Both the position numbers and the translations under genes were made by a program. Positions 10,361-42,122 of a stretch of DNA of 64,000 nucleotides are shown here, piece after piece. The stretch's first letter is position 1. Every line of letters begins with the position of its first letter. Origin of the DNA: Burkholderia cepacia (lineage in GTDB: Bacteria; Pseudomonadota; Gammaproteobacteria; Burkholderiales; Burkholderiaceae); assembly GCF_029962485.1 (NCBI RefSeq), contig NZ_CP073637.1, forward strand, positions 62,001 through 126,000, given 5' to 3'. The notes under the pieces were generated by a model. It worked only from the letters and a program-made list of their open reading frames with translations. It was not told the DNA's origin and searched no databases.

Positions 10361-10670
10361 AGTCAGACTCCGACGGCACAGCGCCGAATCCTGGCCCGCG
10401 CGACGTGCCGTCCGGCTTGCCGGCGGCCACCCCGCGGTACGGCGTTGCTATGATAGCGCAGCGCAAACCCAATAACGACAAGGGTTTCAAAGATTTTCAT
10501 CGGTATTTCGCCGAATGAATCGTCGATTGCCCGTTTTTTGACCTGCGCCAACCGGACAGGATACGCAGCGCCGTCCGCCCATGCGCCGCCCCGTTGCCCT
10601 TTTCCAACGGCCGGTCGGACGGCTCCGCGCAATCCCTTGCCAGGCTTGGCTGCCACGTTTTTTGTTTCGC

Positions 10671-12599
10671 ATGCCCGACCGACTTGTACCCGCCACGCTC
10701 GCGCTTCGCGACGACGGCACGCTCGTCTCGCCCGAGTTCGGCGAGCTCCATCGCAGTGCCTCGGGCACGCTCGCGCATCACGCGTTCGTCGCGGAAAACG
10801 GGATGCCGGCGCGCTGGCAGCAGCGTCGCACGTTCACGATCGTCGCGACGGAATTCGGCGCGGGCGCCAGCTTCCTCGCAACCTGGGCCGCGTGGCGCGA
10901 CGATCCCGTGCGCTGCGAGCGACTGCATTTCGTCGCGGTCGAACCGCATCCGTTCTCACGCGAAGACTTGCGTCGCGCGGTTTCCCATATGGTTGCACAC
11001 ACAACCATATCGGCAGACGCCGATGCATTGATCGACGCATGGCCGATGCTCGTGCCGGGCCTGCACCGGCTCGAATTCGACGAAGGGCGCGTGGTACTCA
11101 CGCTCGCGTTCGGCGATGAGGCGCTCGACCTGTTGAAGAAGCTCGTCGTGCGCGCCGATGCGTTCTATCTCGATGGCGCGACGTCATCGACCGACGTGAT
11201 CCGCGCGCTCGCGAAGATGGCCGGCGACGATGCAACGTTTGTCTCGCATGCACGTTCCGACGACATAAAGCACGCATTTGGCGAAACAGGTTTCACGTGT
11301 CGCGAAGTCGACGATCGTCTCGTCGGCGAATATGCGCCGCGCTGGCGTTCGCGCCGGCACGAACCGCCGCGCGCACTGCCCGTTACGACGCGTCGCGCGA
11401 TCGTGATCGGCGCGGGCCTGGCCGGTTGCGCGGTCGTCGAACGCCTGGCCGCGCGCGGCTGGGACGTCACGCTGATCGAGCGGCACGAACGGATCGCGAG
11501 CGAAGCATCCGGCAATCCTGCCGGCGTATTCCATCCGCTGATGACACGCGACGACAACGTCGCGAGCCGGCTTACGCGCAGCGGCTTCCTGCACGCGATT
11601 GCACGCTGGCGCGCACTCGAACGCGCGGGACATGCGTTCGCGCGCAGCACGCACGGGATGATGCATCTCGCCGAATCGGCCGACGACTTCGCGCGGATGC
11701 GTGACGCATTCGATGCGTTCGGCGCACCGTCCGACTATGTGACGCTGCTCGATACCGATGCCGCGCGTGCGCATCTGAACCTGCCGGTCGCGCATGGCGG
11801 CCTGCTGTTTCCGCACGGTGGCGCCGTCTGGCCGGCCGGGCTGTGTGCCGCGCAATACGCGGCGGCCGGCGAGCGCGTACGCCTGCTTGCCTCCACCGGC
11901 GTGGCGCGGCTCGAGCGGCGCGGCGATGCATGGCATGCACTCGACGATGCAGGCGGCACGCTGGCCGAAGCGCCCGTCGTCGTGCTCGCGAACGCGGGCG
12001 ACGCCGCGCGTCTTGCCGGGTTGCAGCATGTCGCGCTGCAACCGGTACGCGGCCAGCTCACGCTGCTGCCGCCGGGCACCACGGCGCCGCTGCCATGCCC
12101 GACGATCGGCGACGGTTACGCGGTGCCGCTCGACGACGGCACGCTGCTGATCGGCGCCACGTTCGAACCCGACGACGTCGATCCCGCGATGCGCACGGCC
12201 GGCCACGTCGAAAACCTCGATCGCGTTCGGCACCTGCTGCCGGGCCTGATCGGCGACCTGCCGGATCCGGCCACGCTGGGCGGCCGCGTCGCGTTCCGCT
12301 GGGTCGTCGGCGACCGCCTGCCGCTCTTCGGCCCGCTCGCCGACGAAGCGCAGGCCCTCGCGAACGCACGCGCGCTGGGCGGTGCGCAGGCGCGCGATTT
12401 GCCACGAACACCCGGCCTCTATGGCGCATTCGGCTTTGGCTCGCGCGGCCTCGTATGGGCCGCACTCGGCGCCGAACTGATCGCGTCGCAACTCGAAGGC
12501 GAGCCGTGGCCGCTCGAGCGCGAACTTGCCGACGCCGTCGACCCCGCACGCTTCCTGATCCGCGCCCTGCGCGCGCGCCGCGTCGGTTCCGCCGGCTGA
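10671..12599 (+). CDS. mnmC: MnmC tRNA wobble-uridine modification protein, methyltransferase domain degenerate
   Basis: MnmC normally has an N-terminal SAM methyltransferase (MnmD activity, nm5U to mnm5U) and a C-terminal FAD oxidase (cmnm5U to nm5U). The 642-aa product from the ATG at 10671 has a good FAD half (residues about 243-630): dinucleotide fold VIGAGLAGCAVVERLAARG, SEASGNPAGVFHP, and YGAFGFGSRGLVWA. The first half is recognisable by position, but its motifs are eroded: FGAGASF near 62 where FGTGxNF is expected, YLDGATSS near 167 where YLDGF(S/A)PxxNPxxW is expected, and the LATYT-like element replaced by VSHARS. About 20 residues are missing there. The oxidase is probably active, the methyltransferase probably not. 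Confidence 0.88.
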   Translation: MPDRLVPATLALRDDGTLVSPEFGELHRSASGTLAHHAFVAENGMPARWQQRRTFTIVATEFGAGASFLATWAAWRDDPVRCERLHFVAVEPHPFSREDLRRAVSHMVAHTTISADADALIDAWPMLVPGLHRLEFDEGRVVLTLAFGDEALDLLKKLVVRADAFYLDGATSSTDVIRALAKMAGDDATFVSHARSDDIKHAFGETGFTCREVDDRLVGEYAPRWRSRRHEPPRALPVTTRRAIVIGAGLAGCAVVERLAARGWDVTLIERHERIASEASGNPAGVFHPLMTRDDNVASRLTRSGFLHAIARWRALERAGHAFARSTHGMMHLAESADDFARMRDAFDAFGAPSDYVTLLDTDAARAHLNLPVAHGGLLFPHGGAVWPAGLCAAQYAAAGERVRLLASTGVARLERRGDAWHALDDAGGTLAEAPVVVLANAGDAARLAGLQHVALQPVRGQLTLLPPGTTAPLPCPTIGDGYAVPLDDGTLLIGATFEPDDVDPAMRTAGHVENLDRVRHLLPGLIGDLPDPATLGGRVAFRWVVGDRLPLFGPLADEAQALANARALGGAQARDLPRTPGLYGAFGFGSRGLVWAALGAELIASQLEGEPWPLERELADAVDPARFLIRALRARRVGSAG

Positions 12600-40151: not shown

Positions 40152-42122
40152 ATGCTTTTTCCCACAGAATTTGACGTCATCGTCGTCGGTGGCGGCCATG
40201 CCGGCACTGAAGCCGCGCTGGCGTCCGCCCGTATGGGCGCGAAGACGTTGCTGCTGACTCACAACATCGAAACGCTCGGGCAGATGAGCTGCAATCCGTC
40301 GATCGGCGGTATTGGCAAGGGCCATCTGGTCAAGGAAGTCGACGCGCTGGGCGGCGCAATGGCCGCGGCGACGGACGAGAGCGGTATTCAGTTCCGGATC
40401 CTCAATTCGTCGAAAGGCCCGGCCGTGCGGGCGACGCGTGCACAGGCCGACCGCATCTTGTACAAGGCGGCAATCCGCCACCGGCTCGAGAACCAGCCGA
40501 ACCTGTGGCTGTTCCAGCAGGCCGTCGACGACCTGATGGTCGAAGGCGACCGTGTGGTGGGCGCCGTCACGCAGATCGGCATCCGCTTCCGCGCCCGTGC
40601 TGTCGTGCTGACCGCCGGCACGTTCCTCGATGGCAAGATCCACGTCGGCCTGAACAACTACACGGGCGGCCGTGCAGGCGATCCGGCGGCCGTGTCGCTG
40701 TCGTCGCGCCTGAAGGAGCTGAAGCTGCCGCAGGGCCGCCTGAAGACCGGTACGCCGCCGCGCATCGACGGCCGGACGATCGACTTTTCGCAGCTCGACG
40801 AGCAGCCGGGCGACCTCGATCCGATCCCCGTGTTCTCGTTCCTGGGCCGCGCGGAGCAGCATCCGCAGCAGTTGCCGTGCTGGGTTACGCACACGAACGA
40901 GCGCACGCACGACATCATTCGCGGCGGCCTCGACCGTTCGCCTATGTATACAGGCGTGATCGAAGGTGTCGGGCCGCGCTATTGTCCGTCGATCGAGGAC
41001 AAGATCCATCGGTTCGCATCGAAGGAATCGCACCAGATCTTCCTCGAACCGGAAGGGCTGACGACCAACGAGTACTACCCGAACGGGATCTCGACGAGCC
41101 TGCCGTTCGACGTCCAGCTCGAGCTTGTGCATTCGATGCGCGGCCTCGAGAACGCGCACATCCTGCGCCCCGGCTACGCGATCGAGTACGACTACTTCGA
41201 CCCGCGCGCGCTGAAGGCGTCGCTCGAGACGAAGGCGATCAACGGGTTGTTCTTTGCGGGCCAGATCAACGGCACGACGGGCTACGAAGAGGCGGCAGCA
41301 CAGGGCCTGCTGGCCGGTCTCAATGCGGGCCGCTACGTGCAGGAGAAGGACGCGTGGTGTCCGCGTCGCGACCAGGCCTACCTGGGCGTGCTGGTCGACG
41401 ATCTCGTGACGCGTGGTGTGGCCGAGCCTTATCGGATGTTCACGAGCCGCGCCGAGTATCGCCTGAGCCTGCGTGAAGACAATGCCGACATGCGCCTGAC
41501 CGAGATTGGCCGCGAACTGGGGCTCGTCGACGACGCGCGCTGGGACGCATTCAGCCGGAAGCGCGACGCTGTTTCACGTGAAACCGAACGCCTGAAGTCG
41601 ACGTGGGTCACGCCGAAGACGCTGCCGCCGGAAGAGGCGACTGCGCTGCTGGGCAAGGCGATCGATCACGAATACAGCCTCGCCGAGCTGCTGCGCCGCC
41701 CGGGCATCAGCTACGACGGTGTGTGCGGCCTGAAGGGTGGTGAGTGCGGCCCTGCGGAGCCGCTGAGCGACGATCCGGTGCTGCTCGAGCAGATCAAGGA
41801 GCAGGTCGAGATCGGCATCAAGTATCAGGGCTATATCGAGCGCCAGGCATCCGAGATCGAGCGCAACGATGCGAACGAGAACACGCGTTTGCCGGACGGC
41901 ATCGATTACCGCGAAGTGCGCGGGCTGTCGTTCGAAGTGAGCCAGAAGCTGAACGAGTTCCGGCCGGAAACGATCGGGCAGGCTTCGCGTATCTCGGGCG
42001 TCACGCCGGCGGCAATCTCGCTGCTGATGGTGCACCTGAAGCGTCGCGGCCTGGGCCGCCGGAATGGCCCTGCCACTGAGGCAACGGAGCAGGGGGACGG
42101 CGCTGTCCCGACGCAACAATGA
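40152..42122 (+). CDS. mnmG: tRNA uridine-5-carboxymethylaminomethyl modification enzyme MnmG (GidA)
   Basis: FAD- and NADH-dependent enzyme that, with MnmE, makes cmnm5U at the wobble position of certain tRNAs. The 656-aa product has FAD motif [19 protein letters not shown] near residue 11, the [22 protein letters not shown] and [15 protein letters not shown] signatures, [12 protein letters not shown], and the C-terminal helical MnmE/tRNA domain. First gene of mnmG-rsmG-parA-parB, a common near-origin order. A perfect parS is embedded in codons 474-478 (VSRET). Confidence 0.97.
41571..41584. other. Perfect parS site inside mnmG
   Basis: GTTTCACGTGAAAC, identical to the intergenic site at 39156. 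It encodes Val-Ser-Arg-Glu-Thr in the mnmG frame. Together with the intergenic site it marks the ParB loading zone about 1.3 kb before parA. Confidence 0.92.

Follow-up and report, generated by a model that had tools for sequence, protein, structure and literature searches.

What becomes of a bifunctional enzyme when one of its halves wears away is the question raised by mnmC in a 64-kb stretch of Burkholderia cepacia DNA (62 to 126 kb of contig C1 in a genome of 7.7 Mb), called the window below. The original prediction was that the methyltransferase (MT) half of the encoded MnmC is eroded and its flavin adenine dinucleotide (FAD) half intact. Profile scores agree. The FAD half obtained 379.2 bits against TIGR03197, over the cut-off of 174.2, and covers positions 2 to 399 of the 400 in the profile, whereas the MT half did not reach the cut-off of 136 of NF033855, with 86.1 bits in the genome search and 83.2 bits for the 672-residue open frame. 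The MT half narrowly passed PF05430 (Methyltransf_30; 28.9 bits for a gathering cut-off of 22), and the whole protein passed the NCBI model for bifunctional MnmC, NF002480 (709.9 bits, cut-off 540), despite its lost loop. The same eroded loop is found in the 98% relative P0002, whose database record carries the name bifunctional MnmD methyltransferase; that name is probably wrong for the methyl step. On balance, we favor the reading that the MT half has turned into a pseudoenzyme domain, catalytically inactive or almost so, that is retained as a scaffold for a working FAD half, with 5-aminomethyl-(2-thio)uridine [nm5(s2)U] rather than its methylated form mnm5(s2)U as the end product.

The changes in the MT half were followed by aligning 34 eroded sequences, including that of the window, with 30 intact ones (Table 1). 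Residues are numbered as in Escherichia coli MnmC, and their roles and the definition of the interface are taken from an excerpt of Kim and Almo 2013 (PMC3648344). The altered S-adenosylmethionine (SAM) motif FGAGASF is present as described. Its Thr-to-Ala change had been taken as a mark of erosion and was dismissed as such, since Ala at position 69 also occurs in 8 of the 30 intact sequences. The telling change is Asn72 to Ser, as Asn72 is found in 29 of 30 intact sequences and in none of the eroded ones. Replacement of the catalytic element by YLDGATSS was correctly recognized: Asp178 and Gly179 are retained, Phe180 and Pro182 are replaced with Ala and Ser, and Asn185 and Trp189 have gone with a seven-residue deletion. 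The change in the ATYT-like element is equally real. A second deletion, of six residues, was not among the features first listed; it removes the RNA-binding Lys236, which is present in all 30 intact sequences and falls in a gap in 24 of the 34 eroded ones. The eroded sequences are nevertheless open frames of 641 to 656 residues, except for one of 553 that ends at a contig end. Asp178, called invariant in the excerpt of Kim and Almo (PMC3648344), is retained in 23 eroded sequences and lost in 11, comprising an entire subclade of nine and two further sequences. As judged from the alignment, this loss speaks against catalysis being conserved across the clade, though not against weak activity of the window protein. 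Three sequences counted as intact or nearly so, L076, P0058 and P0062, have the look of early erosion in the catalytic loop (FAPAKSPDPW, DGVAPAKNPELW, FAPAKSPDLW).

The state is shared widely. All 65 genomes of the genus have mnmC, and their NF033855 scores are bimodal, with 192 to 232 bits in 30 genomes and 83 to 131 bits in 35. The low scorers are 34 genomes of one clade, that of the window included, and a separate case, G085 (locus L156); from the names of its members we take the clade to be the B. cepacia complex. Sequencing error or a single-strain oddity was dismissed because 33 other genomes of the clade show the same state. Erosion of the MT half is thus confirmed as real and clade-wide, and the implied picture of one odd gene does not hold, the alleles being moreover recombining ones. 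The closest named relative over MnmC, from Burkholderia sp. BCC1644 (97.7% identity), has the same motifs as the window protein; its sequence is the same as that of genome G088, marked as the same species. Species names cover both states. Two sequences named B. ambifaria differ in this way, with erosion in P0047 and a weakened intact loop in L076 (strain RZ2MS16). The intact motif is found in two proteins named B. multivorans (P0099 and P0106), and the eroded one in a B. cenocepacia genome (L009/L061). A 2017 comparison listed COG4121, the MnmC methyltransferase, in nine of nine B. multivorans genomes and as exclusive to them relative to six B. cenocepacia genomes, a listing that passes without comment in the section concerned (PMC5400248).

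The rest of the pathway is standard, as had been assumed: MnmE, MnmG and MnmA are all encoded. The genome search suggested for a stand-alone MnmD found none over the NF033855 cut-off in the same genome or in the 65 genus genomes, where the sole second match scored 20.5 bits (G036). One extra PF05430 match in the window's own genome, at 14.3 bits, was under the cut-off and was rejected as a candidate MnmD. MnmM (PF06962) was likewise not found in any of the 65 genomes, the best score in the own genome being 10.5 bits for a cut-off of 22.7. Because the MT half is eroded and neither MnmD nor MnmM was recognized in the 65 genomes, nm5(s2)U, the product originally expected, is the likeliest end product by analogy with an E. 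coli precedent, the mnmC(m)-G68D strain, in which nm5s2U is the final product according to the excerpted text of PMC3936742. MnmE and MnmG, with MnmA, would make nm5(s2)U34 and its carboxymethylated counterpart cmnm5(s2)U34, and the FAD half would turn cmnm5 into nm5. With the methyl step lost, nm5(s2)U would be final in the tRNAs served by the oxidase half, MnmC(o).

Is the eroded half still under selection? In codon-model fits, which omit columns with gaps in over 20% of the sequences of a group and thus part of the deleted loop, omega for the MT and FAD halves was 0.253 and 0.098 in one eroded group (n = 9) and 0.268 and 0.092 in the other (n = 25), compared with 0.180 and 0.120 (n = 8), 0.127 and 0.145 (n = 12), and 0.155 and 0.174 (n = 10) in intact groups. 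The MT half is thus under approximately 1.4- to 2.1-fold weaker constraint than in the intact groups and the FAD half, if there is a difference, under stronger constraint, with omega well under 1. We also compared parsimony change rates, relative to the FAD half, between the 34 eroded sequences and the intact sets I1, I1+I2 and I3 (8, 20 and 10 sequences). The rate at catalytic sites was 3.60 in the eroded set against 0.35, 0.21 and 0.00 in the intact sets, that of loop 178-190 was 5.28 against 1.19, 1.12 and 0.74, that of segment 206-216 was 3.97 against 1.06, 0.91 and 0.47, and that of the SAM-motif stretch 60-76 was 1.90 against 0.68, 0.59 and 0.20. In contrast, the interdomain interface (residues 130-147) changed at 0.81 against 1.61, 1.07 and 0.68, within the intact range. 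Column entropy over nine catalytic sites was 0.95 in the 34 eroded and 0.05 in the 30 intact sequences. The non-accelerated interface and the purifying selection suggest a pseudoenzyme scaffold. The MT half would stay folded and pack against the FAD half, probably stabilizing or positioning it.

The sequences further indicate that recombination close to the junction of the two domains has swapped intact and eroded MT halves. In a tree of MT halves, the clade's 34 eroded sequences cluster together (support 0.986), with eight intact alleles of the complex as their sister group (0.998; 0.999 for both together). In the FAD-half tree, where several nodes are weak, seven of those eight intact alleles lie among the eroded ones and L026 does not. 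Sliding windows comparing L140 with L058 gave 92 to 99% identity in the flanks and FAD half and 71 to 85% within the MT half, where L140 instead matches the intact L026 at 87 to 99%; a similar dip was seen for L015 versus L009 and L024 versus L022. The eroded P0046 and the intact P0068 are 98.7% identical in the FAD half and 69.4% in the MT half. For five eroded/intact pairs, the best breakpoint fell at most two residues from the junction G(E/D)YAPRWR, with log-likelihood gains of 43 to 75, compared with 5.6, at a different place, for a control pair of like state; two of the five pairs share a member, P0019 and L058 being one protein, so that the five are not independent. Since a faster MT half would suffice to place a breakpoint close to the junction, the case for exchange rests on the trees and the sliding windows. 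The B. cepacia complex would thus have two classes of MT-half allele, one of them eroded, that are swapped near the domain junction.

Similar erosion appears, as far as sequences tell, in several families of Burkholderiales. Among 250 genomes of the order, 161 had an FAD-half match (E up to 1e-30), 158 were over the FAD cut-off and 127 over the MT cut-off. In 37 of the 161, no MT match over the cut-off was found genome-wide. Of these 37, 8 had a weak match and 29 had none at E up to 0.001; some may be explained by incomplete assembly or by oxidases of another kind. The 157 loci collected reduce to 125 distinct sequences, and L078 ends at a contig end. In a FAD-half tree of 61 sequences, in many families an eroded or missing MT state adjoins intact relatives; independent losses were counted on this tree by eye. 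Twelve eroded representatives, chosen without L176 and the same-lineage duplicates L009, L022, L120 and L122 and not all independent (two f8 rows cluster and two f49 rows are weakly placed), retain 36% of the 11 consensus residues at catalytic positions and 80% of the 8 at the interface, in an alignment that is anchored in the conserved segments and unsure within the deleted loops. Assignment is not always clear-cut: the partial sequence L197 appears not intact in the FAD-half tree, and its genome, G243, passes NF033855, as does L047 (G060), yet the loop of the latter is changed. Almost nothing precedes MnmC(o) in L050 and L180, and other Burkholderiales have FAD-half matches in frames of only 402 to 423 residues, two of which were checked. 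Three Caballeronia-type genomes (Burkholderia sp. Leaf177, Caballeronia sp. dw_276 and C. sordidicola) encode an eroded MnmC and a stand-alone MnmD; the latter occurs in the genomes of L120, L121 and L122 (G314, G315 and G316) as frames of 258 to 261 residues with 224 to 225 bits. There, the fused domain is by all indications replaced by a separate gene, and compensation thus exists elsewhere.

Two further observations concern other arrangements in the order. In L169, L172, L173 and L174 (family f44), the FAD half is preceded by 141 to 164 residues without similarity to the MT-half profile. L209 (G093:C16), L210 (G041:C14) and L211 (G288:C4) are second, diverged MnmC2-like matches (49 to 61 bits) that lie in long frames; the stretches examined lack an MnmC FAD half, and a normal MnmC is encoded elsewhere in those genomes.

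The retained, passing scores against NF002480 and PF05430 could be taken to mean that this is an ordinary working MnmC whose motif differences are lineage noise or sequencing error. We regard this as highly improbable, given that the same state, along with additional changes particular to them, is found in the 33 other clade genomes and that the scores are cleanly bimodal. It is also unlikely, if less so, that the MT half is dead and that another, unrecognized methyltransferase still yields mnm5(s2)U. Compensation does occur, as in all three Caballeronia-type eroded genomes examined, and MnmM proves that non-homologous solutions exist (in the excerpt of PMC9976899). Against such a substitute, searches of the window's genome and the 65 genus genomes yielded neither a stand-alone MnmD nor an MnmM above cut-off, and G222, another eroded genome of the same family, has a single NF033855 match, its eroded MnmC. 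A third possibility is that the MT half has been re-specialized, binding SAM with a shortened and altered substrate loop, for example for another set of tRNAs or with low activity. The near-invariance of the SAM glycine loop and Glu101 in the 34 eroded sequences, the presence of Asp178 in 23 of them and an omega of 0.25 to 0.27 would fit. Loop 178-190, however, changes at approximately five times the FAD-half rate, Asp178 is lost in the nine-member subclade and two others, and the SAM loop itself is lost in several eroded representatives of other lineages, making this reading quite doubtful.

The MT half might instead merely be drifting toward loss, kept only as the in-frame upstream part of a needed FAD half. 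The raised omega and the scattered catalytic residues are in keeping with this, and the frames of 402 to 423 residues look like its end point. Yet omega is far below 1, the interface changes no faster than in intact groups, and it stands at 80% of the consensus in the 12 eroded representatives. Drift alone thus seems to us an improbable account. By the same token, erosion as plain decay, as initially implied, describes the relaxation itself and not the purifying selection or the retention of the SAM loop, Glu101 and, in the window protein, Asp178. Several points weigh against the pseudoenzyme scaffold that we favor. Phe67, Gly68, Gly70 and Glu101 are retained in 33 to 34 of the 34 eroded sequences. 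Since the window protein keeps these SAM-contact residues as well as Asp178 and Gly179, SAM may still bind, and its MT half may have weak or altered activity. Core stretches outside the interface are accelerated, as at 78-112 (0.99 against 0.33, 0.42 and 0.67). The interface entropy of 0.19 in eroded versus 0.49 in intact sequences is affected by the narrower eroded clade, which lowers entropies, and the segment doubles as buried core, so that its conservation is less specific. The 31 intact controls that retain 99% of catalytic and 84% of interface residues helped define the consensus. AlphaFold predicts a retained fold from an input alignment that held intact relatives, which is consistent with, and not proof of, a folded domain. 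The scaffold idea is weakened by MnmC(o)-only genes and by E. coli MnmC(o), which folds and works alone, contrary to an earlier report cited in the excerpt of PMC3936742; such a scaffold is not strictly needed. Finally, the methyl group might be supplied by an unrelated enzyme, the methyltransferase families searched being MnmD and MnmM. We infer the loss of MT activity, the nm5(s2)U end product and the scaffold role from sequence.

The proposed state differs from the known ones. Compared with the bifunctional E. coli MnmC (YfcK), the window protein has lost Asn72, Phe180, Pro182, Asn185, Trp189 and Lys236 and carries two in-frame deletions. In the available part of their report, Moukadiri and others describe the two E. 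coli halves as working independently (PMC3936742). The mnmC(m)-G68D strain described there, in which nm5s2U accumulates, resembles the Burkholderia state in its disabled MT half and active FAD half, the latter presumed here. It carries a laboratory point mutation, whereas the Burkholderia state is natural, found in many species and made of many changes. According to the same excerpt, a mutant of this type grows normally in rich medium and loses competitions. Monofunctional MnmC1 or MnmC(o) proteins, 11 of which are mentioned in the excerpt of Kim and Almo (PMC3648344), are similar in that only the oxidase step is expected. Here, in contrast, an MT half is encoded, predicted to be folded and under selection. 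Such genes and single-half orthologues are already described, as the excerpts of PMC3648344 and PMC3936742 indicate. Stand-alone MnmD/MnmC2 of the Aquifex DUF752 type is homologous to the eroded half, and MnmM (YtqB) performs the same methyl step in Gram-positives (in the excerpt of PMC9976899); neither was found in the 65 genus genomes. Another Burkholderia paper names mnmC, in its available part, merely as the neighbor of an insertion (PMC13101487). A search that left most subscription journals outside found no literature on MnmC MT-half loss or recombination in Burkholderia. The apparent novelty lies in an eroded half that is retained under selection, that recurs and that is exchanged as an allele.

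Table 1. Coordinates in the window of mnmC, its halves and motifs, and mnmG
Feature	Position	Strand	Evidence or remark
mnmC gene	10671..12599	+	642 aa; NF002480, 709.9 bits
Eroded MnmC(m)/MnmD-like MT half, residues 1-240	10671..11390	+	NF033855, 86.1 bits; PF05430, 28.9 bits
SAM loop FGAGASF	10854..10874	+	F67, G68, G70 retained; N72 replaced with S
AWPMLVPGLHRLEFDEGR, conserved interdomain interface segment (E. coli 130-147 equivalent)	11037..11090	+	alignment
YLDGATSS, catalytic-loop remnant of YLDGF(A/S)P(A/S)KNxxxW	11166..11189	+	7 residues shorter than intact relatives
ATFVSHA, where intact Burkholderia mostly have ATFATY(S/T)	11232..11252	+	Tyr position 210 replaced with H
DDRL, site of second in-frame deletion (6 residues; Lys236 equivalent removed)	11310..11321	+	alignment
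Intact MnmC(o) FAD oxidoreductase half	11391..12599	+	TIGR03197, 379-381 bits; omega 0.09-0.10 in eroded clade
mnmG (gidA), pathway partner within the window	40170..42044	+	TIGR00136, 911 bits; G000:C1:102170-104044

The open frame of mnmC runs from an ATG at 10581 to 12599. Initiation at that in-frame ATG would add 30 residues, and the start at 10671 matches the first residues of close homologues (MPDRL/MTDRL). MnmE and MnmA are encoded outside the window, on the same contig as mnmC. The GC content is lower (58.6%) between 46236 and 48702, where the frames presumably encode ATP synthase subunits at the start of their operon. On that assumed naming, a foreign island at 46 to 48 kb was dismissed.

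If nm5(s2)U is indeed the end product, a large group of well-studied opportunists decodes NNA and NNG codons with nm5(s2)U and not with mnm5(s2)U, and public names such as that of P0002 contradict the expected modification; whole-protein models can assign a lost activity. More tentatively, and at a strength that we would not yet call probable, the wobble nucleoside of the complex may be a natural nm5/mnm5 dimorphism, maintained through exchange of a domain-sized cassette, with the eroded half as a selected scaffold and erosion as a recurrent path in Burkholderiales. With natural pairs that differ mainly in the MT half (69% identity, against 98.7% in the FAD half), the cost and benefit of a single methyl group could be measured without engineered strains. 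If erosion has indeed recurred while sparing the interface, it would clearly exemplify the conversion of an enzyme domain into a scaffold.
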